From Gemmatimonadota bacterium (GTDB lineage Bacteria > Latescibacterota > UBA2968 > UBA8231): 64,000 nucleotides of DNA. The number at the start of each line of letters is the position of its first letter. Positions within the stretch are counted from its first letter, which is position 1. The notes under the pieces were generated by a model. That model was given only the letters and a program-made list of their open reading frames with translations. It was not told the origin of the DNA and ran no database searches. The stretch is taken from positions 1 to 64,000 of the forward strand of contig JABJJN010000005.1 of NCBI GenBank assembly GCA_018660835.1, given 5' to 3'. The translations under genes and the position numbers were made by a program. Shown here piece after piece: positions 12,702-18,618 of this stretch.

Positions 12702-13661
12702 GTGGCCCAGCGTTTTCACGTAGCTGGCAACACGGTATTCGACTTGCGCCTCGAGCAGTGGCCGGATCGCGCGAATCACGGTGCCGCGGCGCCCGATCCG
12801 GACCGTTGGACCCAGACCAATGTCGTACTCGCCGAAAACCCACCGATACCCATGTTGGGCGGTTGCGGAGCTGCGACTGCATACGCCCTGGGGCGCTTGT
12901 CCCACGGGCTACACCGAATCGACCTGAACACACGCCTGGGCGCTGATCTGTTCGGCGGACTTGCTCATCACTGGCTCCTGCATGCCGGTGTTGAGACGCT
13001 GACCCCTCCGGAGCCGGCCGTAGCGACGTCGACCCACGTCATCCATGCTGAAGGCGCTGGCAGGCGTAGTGCTTTCTATCGAGGGCAGCGAGTCGATTGG
13101 CATCGCTCTCTGCAAGGGTTAGCCCCCGACTGGTTTGTCGCGGCGGGATACGGTCTTGTCGAAGCGGCCGACGCAGAGCAACTGGCTGACGTGTGTGCGC
13201 AACTGGCGAAGAAGGGGGCCCGAATCGTTGTCGATCCGGGGCCTTGGTTTGCTCAAGCCGCGACTGCAGATCAAATGGCTCCTCTGTGGCCACATGTCGA
13301 CCTTCTCATTGGCACGGACGCTGAGCTGGCACCCTACGCCGATGGTTCTGCTACGCCAAGAGATCTGCTGCAGCTAGGTGTCGGCGCGGTAGTTGTGAAG
13401 CAAGGAGCCGACGGTGCCAGTTGGGCCAATGCTCAGCAGGACGGCCACACGCAAGCGAATCGGGTAGACGCTGCCTACAGCGTCGGAGCAGGAGATACTT
13501 TCAATGCGCGACTCGTGTTTGGTCTGGCCCGCGGGGATGAACTCTCTGACGCTGTCCGGGCCGCTGTGGGCCTGGCAACCAGAGTCGTGGCAGAGGAACG
13601 CGGTGTATTTGGCGCCTTCGGCGATCAGCCGGCAGTTGAGGGCCTCGATTCGCAGTTCTGA
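12702..13661 (+). CDS. PfkB-family carbohydrate/nucleoside kinase
   Basis: A 319-residue ribokinase-like protein. The C-terminal signature YSVGAGDTFNARLVFGLARG carries the catalytic Asp and anion hole. The N-terminal PMLGGCGAATAYALGRL matches the substrate-binding region of PfkB kinases. These enzymes phosphorylate sugars or nucleosides with ATP; the substrate is not evident. It starts with GTG two bases after the MOSC stop, without a clear ribosome site, so coupling is likely. It is the last gene before the thrS leader region. Confidence 0.82.
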   Translation: MAQRFHVAGNTVFDLRLEQWPDRANHGAAAPDPDRWTQTNVVLAENPPIPMLGGCGAATAYALGRLSHGLHRIDLNTRLGADLFGGLAHHWLLHAGVETLTPPEPAVATSTHVIHAEGAGRRSAFYRGQRVDWHRSLQGLAPDWFVAAGYGLVEAADAEQLADVCAQLAKKGARIVVDPGPWFAQAATADQMAPLWPHVDLLIGTDAELAPYADGSATPRDLLQLGVGAVVVKQGADGASWANAQQDGHTQANRVDAAYSVGAGDTFNARLVFGLARGDELSDAVRAAVGLATRVVAEERGVFGAFGDQPAVEGLDSQF

Positions 13662-13702
13662 AAGAGCTTGGCAGTTCTGCGAGATCTCCTGTCCCACACG
13701 CC

Positions 13703-13723
13703 GTCAAGGTGCGTCACCTTGAC
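13703..13723. repeat. perfect inverted repeat overlapping the -35 element
   Basis: Two perfect 9-bp arms (GTCAAGGTG and CACCTTGAC) are separated by three bases. The right arm contains the first five bases of the TTGACA box of the thrS promoter. There is no T-run after it, so it is not an intrinsic terminator for the kinase gene. Position and symmetry suit an operator for a dimeric repressor, but no regulator is identified. Confidence 0.5.
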
Positions 13724-13748
13724 ACAAAGCGAGAGCCCCGGTTATACT
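13719..13748 (+). promoter_or_regulatory. sigma-70-type promoter of the thrS unit
   Basis: A perfect -35 box TTGACA (13719-13724) and a -10 box TATACT (13743-13748, five of six) are 18 bp apart. The predicted start is near 13755, giving a leader of about 360 nt before thrS. Confidence 0.65.
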
Positions 13749-13900
13749 TCGACGAGTGCTTAGGGATTCTCCCAACTTCTTCCGCGAGTGTTGTTTGGAT
13801 GCGACAAGGCCAGAAAATCTCGGTCTCCTTCCGGCGAATTGATTCGCTGGCGGCACGCGTAACGTTGTCACAACAATGCGCAGTATTGTCGGAACAGTGC

Positions 13901-13975
13901 TTGCCACTGTCGCTCACTACAACACCTGCTACTACGCTGCCTGCAAGAGCAGGCGAGACGATGGTGGGAGGCTGA
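13901..13975 (+). CDS. Thr/Pro-rich leader peptide of the thrS-proS attenuator
   Basis: A short frame ends with TGA at 13973-13975 and encodes LTTTPATTLP followed by ARAGETMVGG. Five Thr codons fall within seven positions (13916-13936), a sixth is at 13958, and Pro codons are at 13925 and 13940. If translation starts at TTG 13901 the peptide is 24 residues with a third Pro as residue 2, and GGAA lies six bases upstream. A longer start at ATG 13799 is possible. Length, codon bias and position just before a terminator match leader peptides of amino-acid attenuators. The start codon is the weak point. Confidence 0.55.
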   Translation: MPLSLTTTPATTLPARAGETMVGG

Positions 13976-14072
13976 GTGTCGCTCAGATAACGCGACACTC
14001 GCTAAGCCGGTCGGGCACGGGCCCGAGCGCAGCAACTGACACCCATCGTCGATCGATCGACGGTGGGTTTTT
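13939..14072 (+). promoter_or_regulatory. transcription attenuator before thrS
   Basis: Four elements are visible. A six-pair hairpin (13939-13944 with 13949-13954) lies right after the Thr codons. GACGATGG (13957-13964) can pair with CCATCGTC (14043-14050), the 5' arm of the terminator. Between them are two stable hairpins: nine pairs at 13974-13982/13992-14000, and six pairs at 14011-14016/14021-14026. A ribosome stalled on Thr or Pro codons would leave GACGATGG free to disrupt the terminator. One that reaches the stop at 13975 would cover it. This is an inferred mechanism from visible pairings. Confidence 0.55.
14042..14072 (+). terminator. intrinsic terminator in the thrS leader
   Basis: A near-perfect hairpin of about 13 pairs (arms 14042-14054 and 14055-14067, with a perfect 16-bp palindromic core and one G-T pair) is followed directly by five Ts. 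It sits 43 bp before the thrS start, so it can only stop transcription of the genes downstream of the leader. That position is diagnostic of attenuation. Confidence 0.8.
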
Positions 14073-14114
14073 CATTACAGGAAACAGACGCCAACCAAGG
14101 CTGGAGCAAAGACC

Positions 14115-16046
14115 GTGAAGATCTGTATCAGAGAAGGTGAAGTCCTCGAGCACGCGGGGCCGGCGACGTTGAAGGAAGTCTTCGTCGAGCATGACAAGAG
14201 TCTGCTGAAGGAATTCATCGCTGCCCGCACAGCGGATGAGGAGCGAGTCGACTTCCATACTGAACTGGCAGATGATGCCCAGGTTGAACTGATCGCCTGG
14301 GATTCAGATGAAGCAGCCTGGATTTATCGCCACAGTATGTCCCATGTGATGGCACAAGCAGTTCGTCGGCTGTTTCCAGAAGTGAAGCTCGCCATTGGTC
14401 CGGCCATCGATGATGGCTTCTACTACGACTTCGACGCGCCCGAGCCATTTACGAACGAAGATCTGAAGAAGATCGAGAAGGAGATGAAGCGTGTGGGCAA
14501 GCAAAACCACCGCTTCGAGCGTGAAGATGTGAGCCGTGAGCAGGCGCGTGAGCTACTTGCCGATGAGCCATATAAGCTGGAAATCATCGACGATCTCGAG
14601 GAGGATCAATCTCTCACTTTCTACACAGATGGTGACTTCGTCGATCTGTGTCGTGGTCCGCATATGCTAAGCACAGGTCAGGTGAAGCATTACAAGCTTC
14701 TCAGTGTGGCTGGAGCCTATTGGCGTGGTGACGAGAGCCGCAAGATGTTGCAGCGGATCTACGGTACAGCCTTCGCGACTCGTGAGGCCCTCGACCAGCA
14801 CACGAAGATGCTGGAAGAGGCTAAGAAGCGAGATCATCGACGACTCGGGCAGGAACTCGACCTGTTTTTCTTTGACGACGAGGTCGGCCCTGGGTTGCCC
14901 ATGTGGCAGCCAAAAGGTGCGGTGCTGATCGAGGAACTAGAGTCTCTGGCGAAGGAGACGGAAACAGCCGCAGGCTACGATCGTGTGCGGACGCCGCATA
15001 TCTGCAAGGAGTCGATGTATCAAAAGAGTGGTCATCTTCCATACTACAAAGAATCCATGTTTCCACCGATGGAGTTGGATGGTACGACGTACTATCTGAA
15101 ACCGATGAATTGCCCTCATCACCACAAGATTTTTGGCTCACTGCCGAGATCATATCGGGACATGCCGCTGCGTCTGGCTGAGTATGGAACATGCTACCGA
15201 TACGAGCAGTCGGGCGAACTCTTCGGTCTGATGCGGGTCCGATCCATGCAGATGAATGACGCCCACATTTATTGTCGTCTCGATCAATTCGAGGAAGAAT
15301 TCCTCGCCGTGTGCCAGATGTATCTGGATTATTTCGAATTGTTCGGCATTGAGAAATACGTCATGCGATTCAGCACGCACGACGAAGAAGGGCTGGGCAA
15401 GAAGTTCGTCGATGCGCCGGAAATGTGGAAGAAGACGGAGGACATGGTGCGTCGGACGTTGGTCAGTGGCGGCATCAACTACGAAGAGGTGTCTGGAGAG
15501 GCTGCCTTCTACGGTCCGAAGATCGATGTAGAAATCTGGAGCGCCATCGGTCGGGAATTCACAATCGCTACAAATCAGGTCGATTTTGCCGTGCCTGAAC
15601 GATTTGGCCTGTCCTATGTAAATAGTGAGGGCAATGACGAAGTGCCCTTGTGCATCCATCGCGCGCCACTGGGCACGCATGAACGCACTGTCGGTTTCCT
15701 CATCGAGCACTACGCCGGTGCTTTTCCTCTGTGGTTGGCACCTGTCCAGGCTGTGGTGCTCCCTATTGCAGAGCGACACGCTGAATATGGCGCCAAGATC
15801 CTTGCCGCGCTCAAGGCGCGAGGCGTGCGAGCAGAGATACACGCAGATCAGACATTGAATTATCGGATCCGTGCGGCGCAGAAGAAAAAGGTCCCGTACA
15901 TGATGATCCTCGGAGATCGTGAGGTTGAGGAAGAGCAGATTTCGATTCGCGAGCGCAGTGGCGAGAATCTCGATCCCATGTCCCTGGCGGCGGTATTGGA
16001 TATGGTGACCGGCAAGATCAGTTCACGCAGCGGTCAGTTGCAGTAG
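14115..16046 (+). CDS. thrS: threonine--tRNA ligase
   Basis: A 643-residue class II synthetase of normal length. It has an N-terminal TGS-like domain (1-65), then the editing domain with HSMSH near 73 and the Cys in DFVDLCRGPH near 184. The catalytic core has the zinc-binding Cys in MNCPHHH near 335, motif 2 around RYEQSGELFGLMRVRSM and motif 3 around IHRAPLGTHERTVG. A C-terminal anticodon-binding domain follows. It charges tRNA-Thr and clears Ser-tRNA-Thr. The GTG start has GGAG eight bases upstream. Leader attenuation is likely, and two further genes follow on the same strand with short gaps. Confidence 0.97.
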   Translation: MKICIREGEVLEHAGPATLKEVFVEHDKSLLKEFIAARTADEERVDFHTELADDAQVELIAWDSDEAAWIYRHSMSHVMAQAVRRLFPEVKLAIGPAIDDGFYYDFDAPEPFTNEDLKKIEKEMKRVGKQNHRFEREDVSREQARELLADEPYKLEIIDDLEEDQSLTFYTDGDFVDLCRGPHMLSTGQVKHYKLLSVAGAYWRGDESRKMLQRIYGTAFATREALDQHTKMLEEAKKRDHRRLGQELDLFFFDDEVGPGLPMWQPKGAVLIEELESLAKETETAAGYDRVRTPHICKESMYQKSGHLPYYKESMFPPMELDGTTYYLKPMNCPHHHKIFGSLPRSYRDMPLRLAEYGTCYRYEQSGELFGLMRVRSMQMNDAHIYCRLDQFEEEFLAVCQMYLDYFELFGIEKYVMRFSTHDEEGLGKKFVDAPEMWKKTEDMVRRTLVSGGINYEEVSGEAAFYGPKIDVEIWSAIGREFTIATNQVDFAVPERFGLSYVNSEGNDEVPLCIHRAPLGTHERTVGFLIEHYAGAFPLWLAPVQAVVLPIAERHAEYGAKILAALKARGVRAEIHADQTLNYRIRAAQKKKVPYMMILGDREVEEEQISIRERSGENLDPMSLAAVLDMVTGKISSRSGQLQ

Positions 16047-16088: not shown

Positions 16089-16805
16089 GTGGCGAAGGGG
16101 CGCAGTCGCGATGGGTGGTGGGCTCGACTGTGCCACGGCGCCAGGGTGGTCTGGCGTTTTCGCTACCACCTGCTGTGTGCTGCCGTGGCCCTCGGCTTGT
16201 GGGAATCTGCCCTGATCAAGCCATTTCGCGTTTTCGTCGTCATGGTGCACGAGGTGTGCCATGCTGCGGCGGCGTTGCTTACGGGCGGCGAGGTTATCGA
16301 GATGCGGACCGCCTGGAATGAGTCAGGGCATACCATCAGTTCGGGCGGGATTGTGCCCATCATCTGTTCTGCCGGGTATCTGGGGTCCGCCTTGCTGGGG
16401 GCCCTGTTGATCTGGTCTGGTGCGTTGCCACAATTACAGCGAATCTCCCTGTTGGTCGTCGGTGCCACGACCATGGGTATGACCATGTCCTACACACCAG
16501 TCGGTGAAGGGGATTTCTATCTGGGAATCTTTGGCGGGTTGGCACTGATGGCTCTGGCCATGCATTCGCGGCGCACGGGTGAGGCAGGTTCTGTCTGGCT
16601 TGGCGTGATGCTTTGTATCTATAGTCTGTTCGATTTTCTTACCGATCTCTGGTCCTATGCAGAGTTCACCGATGCAGGAATTCTCGCTCGCCACTGGGGC
16701 ATCCCGTGGCTGGCGTATCCGATTGCCATCACCTGGTCTGTTGTGTCGATCTGGGTGATGATCCGAGCCATGTCCGCTCTCGTACGACACGAGGCAGCCA
16801 GCTGA
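16089..16805 (+). CDS. M50B-like integral membrane metallopeptidase
   Basis: A 238-residue membrane protein with about six hydrophobic segments. HEVCH within the first or second helix (near residue 54) is a zinc-protease H-E-x-x-H motif, and the pattern VHEVCHAAAALLTGG matches the peptidase M50B-like family. Such proteins are site-2-type intramembrane proteases or their relatives; targets are unknown. The start is a GTG 42 bases after thrS, and the stop is about 40 bases before proS, so all three are probably co-transcribed. A protease between two tRNA synthetases has no obvious functional explanation. Confidence 0.7.
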   Translation: MAKGRSRDGWWARLCHGARVVWRFRYHLLCAAVALGLWESALIKPFRVFVVMVHEVCHAAAALLTGGEVIEMRTAWNESGHTISSGGIVPIICSAGYLGSALLGALLIWSGALPQLQRISLLVVGATTMGMTMSYTPVGEGDFYLGIFGGLALMALAMHSRRTGEAGSVWLGVMLCIYSLFDFLTDLWSYAEFTDAGILARHWGIPWLAYPIAITWSVVSIWVMIRAMSALVRHEAAS

Positions 16806-16845
16806 TGTATCGCTGGCGACTACTACACCAGGAGAGATGTCCATC

Positions 16846-18618
16846 ATGCGGATGAGTAGGCTTTTCAGCCAGACTCTGCGCGAAGCCCCGGCAGATGCCG
16901 AGGTAGCCAGCCACATTTTCCTCCTGCGGGCAGGTTTTCTGCGGCAGCTGGCGAGCGGGATTTTCAGCTATCTACCACTAGCTCAGCGCACGGCCCGTAA
17001 GATTGAACAGATCATCCGTGAAGAGATGGATGCCCTCGGTGCGCAGGAGATCACCATGCCTGTTGTGCATCCCGCTGATCTATGGAAGAAGACGGGACGC
17101 TACGGGATCGACGAACTGAGTCGTTTCGCCGACCGCTCCGATCGAGAAATGGTCCTGGCCATGACCCACGAGGAAGTGGTCGCTGATCTGGTCCTCAAGG
17201 AGATCAAGTCGTATCGCCAACTGCCACAGCTTGTCTACCAGATGCAGACCAAGTGGCGAGATGATCCTCGTCCGCGTTCCGGTCTGATTCGAGTGCGTGA
17301 ATTCATCATGAAGGACTCCTATTCCCTCGATGCAACGGAGGAGGGATTGGAGACCCAATACAGAGCGCACTATCAGGCATACTTCAACATTTTCAATCGC
17401 TGCGGTATCCCGACAGTCGCTGTTGCAGCTGATTCTGGCATGATGGGCGGCAAGGTCTCCCATGAATACATGTATCTGACACCCATCGGCGAGGACACGA
17501 TCGTATCGTGTGCCGGATGTGGCTATTCAGCGAACCGCCAGGTTGCTGGTTTTGCGAAACCTGCAGCGGTTGATGGTGAGCCAGCGGCGACTCAGAAAGT
17601 GCAAACACCTGACACGAAGACAATCGAAGCACTCGCGCAGTTGCTCTCGATCGAGGCGAGCCAGACGGCAAAGGCCGTGTTCTTCATGGGGACCTTCGAG
17701 AGCGAGCAGGCCGATGTGACGAGCGAGGAGAGACTCATTTTCGCGGTCATTCGTGGCGATCTGGACGTGAACGAAACCAAGATCGCTAATGCTGTGAAGG
17801 CATCGAGACTGCGACCGGCGACGGATGCGGAGATCACCGCCGTTGGTTGTGTCGCAGGCTACGCTTCTCCCGTCGGCATCACAGGAGCACTGGTTGTGGC
17901 CGATGATTCGATTCCGGCTTCACCGAATCTTGTGGCAGGCGCCAATGAAGAAGGTGTTCACCTGCTGAATGTGAACTATGGGCGCGACTGGGAGGCAACG
18001 GTCGTCGCCGATATCGGTGCTGCTGGCGAGGCGAATGAATGCATACAGTGTGGTCAATCGCTGACCTTGTCTCGCGGCGTGGAGGTTGGCAACATCTTCC
18101 AGCTTGGCACACGTTTTACTGATGCCATGGGAGCTACATTTCTAGACGAAAATGGCAAGGCACAGTCAGTGATCATGGGTTCCTATGGAATTGGCGTTGG
18201 CCGTCTGTTGGCCTGTGTCGCGGAAGAGCACAACGATGAAGCAGGACTACGCTGGCCGATCACGATTGCGCCATTCGAAGTCCATATCGTGTCCCTCGCC
18301 AAAGGCGATTCCGAAGCGGCGACTGTGGCCCAGAAACTCTATGATGAGTTGCTGGGACGCGACGTCGATGTATTGCTGGATGACCGACGCGAGAATCCAG
18401 GCGTGAAGTTCAAGGATGCGGATCTGATCGGCTGCCCCGTCCGCGTAACTGTGGGGGATCGTGGGCTGAAGAAGGGAATCGTTGAAGTGAAGCGGCGCGA
18501 TGCTGAAGAGCCAGAGGAGGTCGCCGTGGATCAGGCTGTCGAACAGGTCAGCGCGACCCTGGCAGCTTTGTACGAGGCGATTCAACAGACCGTCGTGGAA
18601 GTGCCTTACGAGAACTGA
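16846..18618 (+). CDS. proS: proline--tRNA ligase (bacterial type with INS domain)
   Basis: About 590 residues, the usual length for the bacterial type carrying an editing insertion. MRMSRLFSQTLREAPADAE is the standard N-terminus. TRED-like motif 2 lies around MQTKWRDDPRPRSGLIRVREF, the INS editing domain spans about 225-400, and motif 3 is GSYGIGVGRLLA. A C-terminal anticodon-binding domain ends the protein. It charges tRNA-Pro and deacylates Ala-tRNA-Pro. The ATG at 16846 is preferred over 16837 because AGGAGAG is too close to the latter. It is the last gene of the thrS unit, convergent with the epimerase at 18622. Confidence 0.96.
   Translation: MRMSRLFSQTLREAPADAEVASHIFLLRAGFLRQLASGIFSYLPLAQRTARKIEQIIREEMDALGAQEITMPVVHPADLWKKTGRYGIDELSRFADRSDREMVLAMTHEEVVADLVLKEIKSYRQLPQLVYQMQTKWRDDPRPRSGLIRVREFIMKDSYSLDATEEGLETQYRAHYQAYFNIFNRCGIPTVAVAADSGMMGGKVSHEYMYLTPIGEDTIVSCAGCGYSANRQVAGFAKPAAVDGEPAATQKVQTPDTKTIEALAQLLSIEASQTAKAVFFMGTFESEQADVTSEERLIFAVIRGDLDVNETKIANAVKASRLRPATDAEITAVGCVAGYASPVGITGALVVADDSIPASPNLVAGANEEGVHLLNVNYGRDWEATVVADIGAAGEANECIQCGQSLTLSRGVEVGNIFQLGTRFTDAMGATFLDENGKAQSVIMGSYGIGVGRLLACVAEEHNDEAGLRWPITIAPFEVHIVSLAKGDSEAATVAQKLYDELLGRDVDVLLDDRRENPGVKFKDADLIGCPVRVTVGDRGLKKGIVEVKRRDAEEPEEVAVDQAVEQVSATLAALYEAIQQTVVEVPYEN

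Follow-up and report, generated by a model that had tools for sequence, protein, structure and literature searches.

A probable threonine leader-peptide attenuator upstream of thrS in an uncultured bacterial family deposited as Gemmatimonadetes

The region in front of thrS in the window (the whole stretch of 64,000 nucleotides analysed here) very probably encodes a transcription attenuator that is ribosome-mediated and specific for threonine; it would act on thrS and probably also, through co-transcription, on the genes behind it. In the window we found a Thr-rich frame, a terminator between this frame and thrS, and a segment that could compete for one arm of the terminator (Table 1), an organization whose conservation in related uncultured bacteria suggests that the cell senses its threonine supply via a stalling ribosome. 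Transcription would begin near 13755, with a ribosome trailing the RNA polymerase along the 58-codon leader. With plentiful charged tRNA-Thr the ribosome would reach the stop codon at 13973 and cover 13959-13968, so that the terminator 14041-14068 would form and transcription would end before thrS. If charged tRNA-Thr runs short (low threonine or low ThrRS activity) the ribosome would stall on 13916-13936 and leave 13959-13968 free to pair with 14042-14051 before the 3' arm of the terminator is made. The terminator arm would thus be sequestered and the polymerase would read into thrS.

This kind of mechanism is ordinary, being already known from trp, his, thr, pheST, leuS and hisS. What is new is the finding of a conserved Thr-run leader with a predicted terminator in front of thrS, and its occurrence in a clade deposited as Gemmatimonadetes. 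thrS thereby gains a conserved predicted leader-peptide attenuator and is added to the few tRNA synthetase genes reported to be set in this way, and the mechanism is placed in an uncultured clade. The natural variants (runs of ten Thr codons, leaders at the first bases of the transcript, leader losses, proS linked or not) form a ready collection in which to test the influence of codon number and spacing on attenuation.

Organization of the thrS locus in the window

Because a sigma-70-like promoter is located upstream of the leader frame, a transcript start near 13755 is plausible. This promoter is the sole promoter-like site in a scan of 13400-14400, and none was found between the terminator and thrS in the same scan. 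The preliminary description of this DNA had noted a short frame with five Thr codons in seven positions. The Thr codons (13916, 13919, 13922, 13931 and 13934) can be read directly in the sequence, and the frame exists but is longer than described, extending from ATG 13799 to the TGA stop codon at 13973-13975. Since the ATG at 13799 is supported by relatives, the leader peptide has 58 residues. Its ribosome-binding site is poor or degenerate (GCGAG).

Table 1 Features of the thrS leader region and downstream genes in the window.
Feature	Position	Strand	Basis or remark
Sigma-70-like promoter, TTGACA-18-TATACT	13719..13748	+	11/12 consensus; shuffle mean 0.2 in region
Leader peptide frame, 58 codons, ATG to TGA	13799..13975	+	Reading frame and relatives
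CCACUGUCGCUC, predicted pairing with 13955-13967	13904..13915	+	Minimum-energy fold
Thr cluster ACT ACA ACA CCT GCT ACT ACG (TTTPATT), putative sensor	13916..13936	+	
Local hairpin, -12.6 kcal/mol	13935..13960	+	Between Thr cluster and antiterminator segment
Putative antiterminator segment CGATGGTGGG, partner 14042-14051	13959..13968	+	Pairing and relatives
Spacer hairpin GAGTGTCGC...GCGACACTC, begins inside stop codon	13974..14000	+	Predicted fold
Second spacer hairpin	14001..14033	+	Predicted fold
Intrinsic terminator, 12-bp stem 14041-14068, U tract to 14072	14041..14072	+	Terminator scan, fold
thrS, threonyl-tRNA synthetase	14115..16046	+	GTG start, GGAG 8 nt upstream
M50B-like membrane peptidase gene	16089..16805	+	Between thrS and proS
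proS, prolyl-tRNA synthetase	16837..18618	+	

The strong terminator previously noted in front of thrS was recovered as a stem with a U tract, one of two terminator-like sites in 13400-14400 when both strands are counted (shuffled sequences gave 0.5 on average). The gene order was also as described, thrS (14115) being followed by a single M50B-like gene and then by proS (16837). The M50B-like gene is present in 17 of the 25 genomes of the window's family, and in 16 it lies at most about 2.2 kb from thrS.

The predicted folding energy of the region 13900-14078 is -86 kcal/mol, compared with an average of -59.5 for shuffled sequences (z -6.4; 0 of 200 dinucleotide shuffles as good), and the whole leader folds with a z of -5.6 (0 of 100 shuffles as good). 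The local hairpin at 13935-13960 is a possible pause hairpin. Its stem is identical in the genome G001, and in G012 and G009 stems of other sequence follow in the same order. In the minimum-energy fold of the window CCACUGUCGCUC at 13904-13915 can pair with 13955-13967, a putative protector-like arrangement in which the antiterminator segment would be concealed. A spacer hairpin like that at 13974-14000 was also visible by eye in G001.

Threonine and proline codons of the leader in the family

ThrS was searched in the 25 genomes of the window's family and in 60 relatives. A match was obtained in 22 of the 25 family genomes (none in G010, G011 and G019 in this search) and the region upstream of thrS was readable in 21, G005 being left out as its 5' part is missing; the loci L031 and L109 are those of G020 and G015 and each was counted once. 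Gemmatimonadetes bacterium isolate SB0661_bin_36 (G020) and Gemmatimonadaceae bacterium isolate COS4_bin_9 (G015) are family members deposited under Gemmatimonadetes. A search of the window's own genome for a 16S sequence gave no hit.

In 17 of the 21 readable regions a terminator-like hairpin follows a frame of 24-58 codons. At least four Thr codons in nine were present in 15/21, the window included, and at least five in 14/21. The best nine-codon window of the 17 leaders holds nine Thr in five leaders, eight in one, six in two, five in six, four in one, three in one (G002) and two in one (G003), the last two being Thr-poor. Terminator sequence, leader length and peptide all vary among the 17. 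Five close genomes of the group g7 carry 9 or 10 consecutive Thr codons, and the four pairs of equal-length g7 runs, which are not independent, differ by four synonymous and no non-synonymous changes. As the Thr codons are kept with synonymous changes and the start context is conserved, these data point to translation of the leader.

A promoter-like pair was also seen ahead of the other 16 leader frames, in a search run without shuffle control. The leader start lies 35-72 nt past the -10 box in seven leaders including the window, and six of these (all but the window) have a GGAG-type site and begin with ATG TCN. The distance is 16 nt in G015 and 24 nt in G004. In the seven g7 leaders that begin with MIS and in G009 the start is only 6-7 nt past the -10 box, and these eight leaders are therefore probably translated from leaderless transcripts.

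No recognisable leader was found in four of the 21 regions (G006, G008, G014 and G017), which carry a terminator-like hairpin and no Thr-rich frame. Such a hairpin is present upstream of thrS in all 21 readable regions and with all 17 leaders. In G017, G008 and G014 (loci L114, L115 and L116) it is placed almost at the expected transcript start, which looks like a loss of the leader frame that spared the hairpin.

The preliminary description had also proposed that a single leader counts both Thr and Pro and so sets both synthetases. Such a leader, gauging the charging of the two amino acids and adjusting thrS and proS together, is unlikely. Two to three Pro codons do occur in the 12-codon Thr window, with proS downstream, in G000, G001, G012, G009 and G015 (the window's genus and g5), and, judging from the distances, stalling at Pro 13925 or 13940 would likewise keep 13959-13968 accessible. 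proS is located within about 4 kb downstream in 14 of the 17 leader genomes; it is 1.66 Mb away in G018, in G004 none was seen within about 14 kb, and the linkage in G022 was left out of the comparison. Against the dual reading, Pro in the Thr window of the linked leaders ranges from 0 to 3, with none in the Thr-rich G020, G021 and G007 nor in the Thr-poor G002, whereas the unlinked G018 and G004 have one each, next to 10 and 8 Thr respectively. Hence no association of Pro codons with proS linkage was seen among the leaders compared, a comparison that is weak because only two are unlinked. Moreover, the positions of Pro in the run differ between G000 and G001 with the exception of the Pro before ARAG, which sits in a hairpin common to both, and a Pro codon (CCN) is one base away from a Thr codon (ACN). 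Comparison of the homologous leaders, close to the check advised in the preliminary description, showed dense Thr codons in most of them and a varying number of Pro codons, and counting of Pro by the leader is not supported by these sequences.

Where the Thr window lacks Pro, the rest of the leader peptide contains 2-4 Pro, as it does in the g7 leaders, and in G020, G021, G023, G018 and G022 two Pro codons are found within a few codons ahead of the Thr run. That the leader became a sensor of two amino acids in the window's genus and g5 only, with stalling at either Thr or Pro opening the thrS and proS operon, seems to us a slim prospect. proS could be co-controlled simply by its downstream position.

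Antiterminator pairing and the position of the ribosome

The preliminary description had named an 8-nt segment as a potential partner of the terminator's 5' arm, and GACGATGG (13957-13964) is indeed exactly complementary to CCATCGTC in the terminator arm (14043-14050). This 8-bp register exists and fits G001 best; the strongest register in the window is however a 10-bp one, in which 13959-13968 pairs with CCCATCGTCG at 14042-14051 (two G-U pairs included, -17.3 kcal/mol), and this is the homologous pairing. It is only moderately beyond chance, 5 of 100 shuffles being as good. Since the pairing alone is modest, it is its conservation in relatives that makes the case.

Sixteen of the 17 leaders carry the motif CGAYGG, a potential partner of the terminator arm, at -25 to +9 relative to their stop codon, and the remaining one carries GAYGG. 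The background frequency was 12 in 345 windows, a contrast that is inflated by relatedness. We regard this motif as better evidence than the pairing energies, which were equalled or bettered by 5 to 71 of 100 shuffles depending on the leader (n=17). Together with the frequency of the frame with its terminator (17/21) and of dense Thr codons (15/21), it lends comparative support to the Thr leader-peptide attenuation of thrS put forward in the preliminary description.

In a free search the best partner of the terminator arm was located at the leader stop in 9 of the 17 leaders (G000, G001, G012, G009, G015, G007, G002, G003 and G004) and further upstream in eight (the seven MIS leaders of g7 and G013). 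All 17 leaders contain, inside -25 to +14 of the stop, a 9-mer that can form eight or more of nine pairs. For the g7 leaders this stop-region scan is within chance; for seven lineages combined it gave p = 0.012 against genomic windows and p = 0.001 against shuffles.

We then modelled the folding of each leader from its start onward, omitting the 5' untranslated part and representing the ribosome by a mask of about 32 nt. With the ribosome on the first or the last Thr codon, the predicted probability of the antiterminator before synthesis of the 3' arm was at least 0.5 in 13 of the 17 leaders (0.90-0.94 in the window). Placing the ribosome at the stop gave a value of 0.01 or less in all 17 (0.00 in the window), a result that is partly by construction as the segment was looked for near the stop. 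In the window the model agrees with the proposal that the stop codon at 13973-13975 is placed so that a ribosome masks the antiterminator segment. Four leaders (G015, G023, G024 and G004) remained below 0.5 in both stalled states.

In ribosome-free RNA the antiterminator probability was at least 0.5 in 12 of the 17 leaders (0.66 in the window). Stalling exceeded the ribosome-free value by at least 0.15 in only six of the 17, and in a few (G012, G015 and G023) the stalled value was below that of free RNA. A default-off state without translation was therefore not seen in most of the 17 leaders in this folding model. Folding with and without ribosome masking, as suggested in the preliminary description, agreed with an effect of ribosome position but gave no clear off state for the free RNA of the window, and the contrast that the model supports is that between a stalled ribosome and a ribosome at the stop. 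The probability of the full terminator with the ribosome at the stop was low in G024 (0.11) and G018 (0.56). When the full sequence is folded the terminator dominates at equilibrium in most cases, the exceptions being G003 without ribosome and G024 with the ribosome at the last Thr codon or at the stop. This indicates that the switch would have to act during transcription, as in the classical cases.

Other thrS leaders, known attenuators and the ThrS tree

A Thr-rich frame was absent in all 15 relatives of the same class or phylum that were scanned (L016-L030). Among them, eleven loci of sister families in the same class (L017, L019, L020, L022, L023 and L025-L030) have their own thrS promoter, a leader of about 115-120 nt and a terminator with a GCGCG stem. 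These leaders have neither a Thr-rich frame nor an Rfam match, and in a quick alignment the 11 share little common structure besides the terminator. They are apparently another kind of thrS attenuator.

Such premature terminators without a Thr-rich frame would also be compatible with a T-box or another tRNA- or protein-binding leader in the window's family, in place of a translated sensor. thrS T-boxes are reported in almost all Firmicutes (PMC2494555), and E. coli ThrRS is described as self-regulating (PMC2965389). We nevertheless judge this explanation very unlikely, as the synonymous changes of the Thr codons and the conserved start context point to translation, and as the window and 20 loci of the family gave no Rfam match at gathering score, T-box and Thr_leader models included, hence no recognised T-box. 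Identity with the T-box or with Rfam Thr_leader was rejected on the basis of these scans.

The translated Thr leader that we favour resembles several known systems. The thrABC leader of enterobacteria (thrL; Rfam family Thr_leader, RF00506) controls biosynthesis and reads Thr plus Ile. It has the same Thr-rich leader peptide and terminator/antiterminator switch; here, in contrast, thrS is controlled, and there is no Ile run and no match to Rfam. Firmicutes T-boxes and the autoregulation of E. coli ThrRS, the latter an operator mechanism, likewise make thrS answer to its own charging or product, but their sensor is the tRNA or ThrRS and not a translated leader. The attenuators of pheST, leuS, trpS and hisS are similar in that the synthetase gene is preceded by a leader with many codons for the amino acid that the enzyme loads, although they concern other amino acids and other phyla. 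Leader-peptide attenuators are described for leuS and trpS in Streptomyces in a paper that also cites pheST (PMC1262725), and histidine leaders precede hisS paralogues in bacilli (PMC2965389). The authors of the latter source considered in 2010 that, apart from such cases, only Proteobacteria and Actinobacteria were known to have leader peptides (PMC2965389).

The one earlier thrS leader that we found, in a literature search covering mainly freely available papers, is a proposal for thrL-thrS of Streptomyces lividans TK24. Its authors report a candidate Thr leader of 18 residues with two Thr, transcribed leaderless, for which they found one hairpin and no U-rich stretch and considered termination unclear (PMC8079986). 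It shares the leaderless transcript with, probably, G009 and the seven g7 leaders, whereas the leaders of the window's family show runs of as many as ten Thr, are followed by a clear terminator and are conserved over the family. The accessible parts of PMC4833913, PMC3766115, PMC13410324, PMC8910356 and PMC2330054 mention no thrS leader peptide, and our literature search for leader-peptide attenuation in Gemmatimonadetes returned no paper. One of these papers (PMC13410324) reports that ribosomes halt at Thr codons when ThrRS is inhibited by borrelidin.

As a control, we looked in 95 thrS loci for a frame with four or more Thr in nine codons, and 90 were counted after removal of two loci of the window's family and three with less than 300 nt upstream; the scan relies on estimated gene starts, admits ATG, GTG and TTG as start codons and detects Thr-rich frames only. 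Outside the family 4 of the 90 reached this density (L042, L054, L088 and L095), and a terminator behind the Thr-rich frame was found only in L095. A constitutive terminator accompanied by a chance Thr-rich frame would fit the terminator-like hairpins of the four leader-less genomes and the pairing energies close to chance in several leaders, but is highly implausible given that the promoter is upstream of the terminator, that thrS is directly behind it with no promoter-like site between, and that a Thr-rich frame with terminator is present in 15/21 regions of the family against 1/90 outside. L095 (Verrucomicrobiales) has, about 155-45 nt upstream of thrS, a GTG frame ending in IRTTTTC with a hairpin at the stop and a terminator, and is possibly an independent Thr leader.

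Thr runs elsewhere in five genomes of the family were inspected at 30 of the 39 listed places. Outside the thrS leader they lie in stop-to-stop frames of 410-1005 codons in which the run is read as D/H/N/Y-rich or V repeats, a weak criterion since the thrS leader places also lie in such frames (297-530), which leaves room for a second Thr leader. A pattern search for Phe runs gave totals near the control (121 vs 140, 229 vs 230 and 234 vs 200).

In a ThrS tree of 35 rows (21 from the family and 14 chosen others) the family sequences fall into two lineages, with leaders in 3/7 and 14/14 members. The occurrence of leaders in both lineages indicates that the leader goes with the locus and not with one type of ThrS, and the pattern of presence and absence requires at least two changes. 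At six loci (L112-L117, from G007, G006, G017, G008, G014 and G004 respectively) the ThrS matches are split at residue 319/320, the first half being 63-69% and the second half 50-54% identical to ThrS of the window, so that thrS is perhaps mosaic at these loci.
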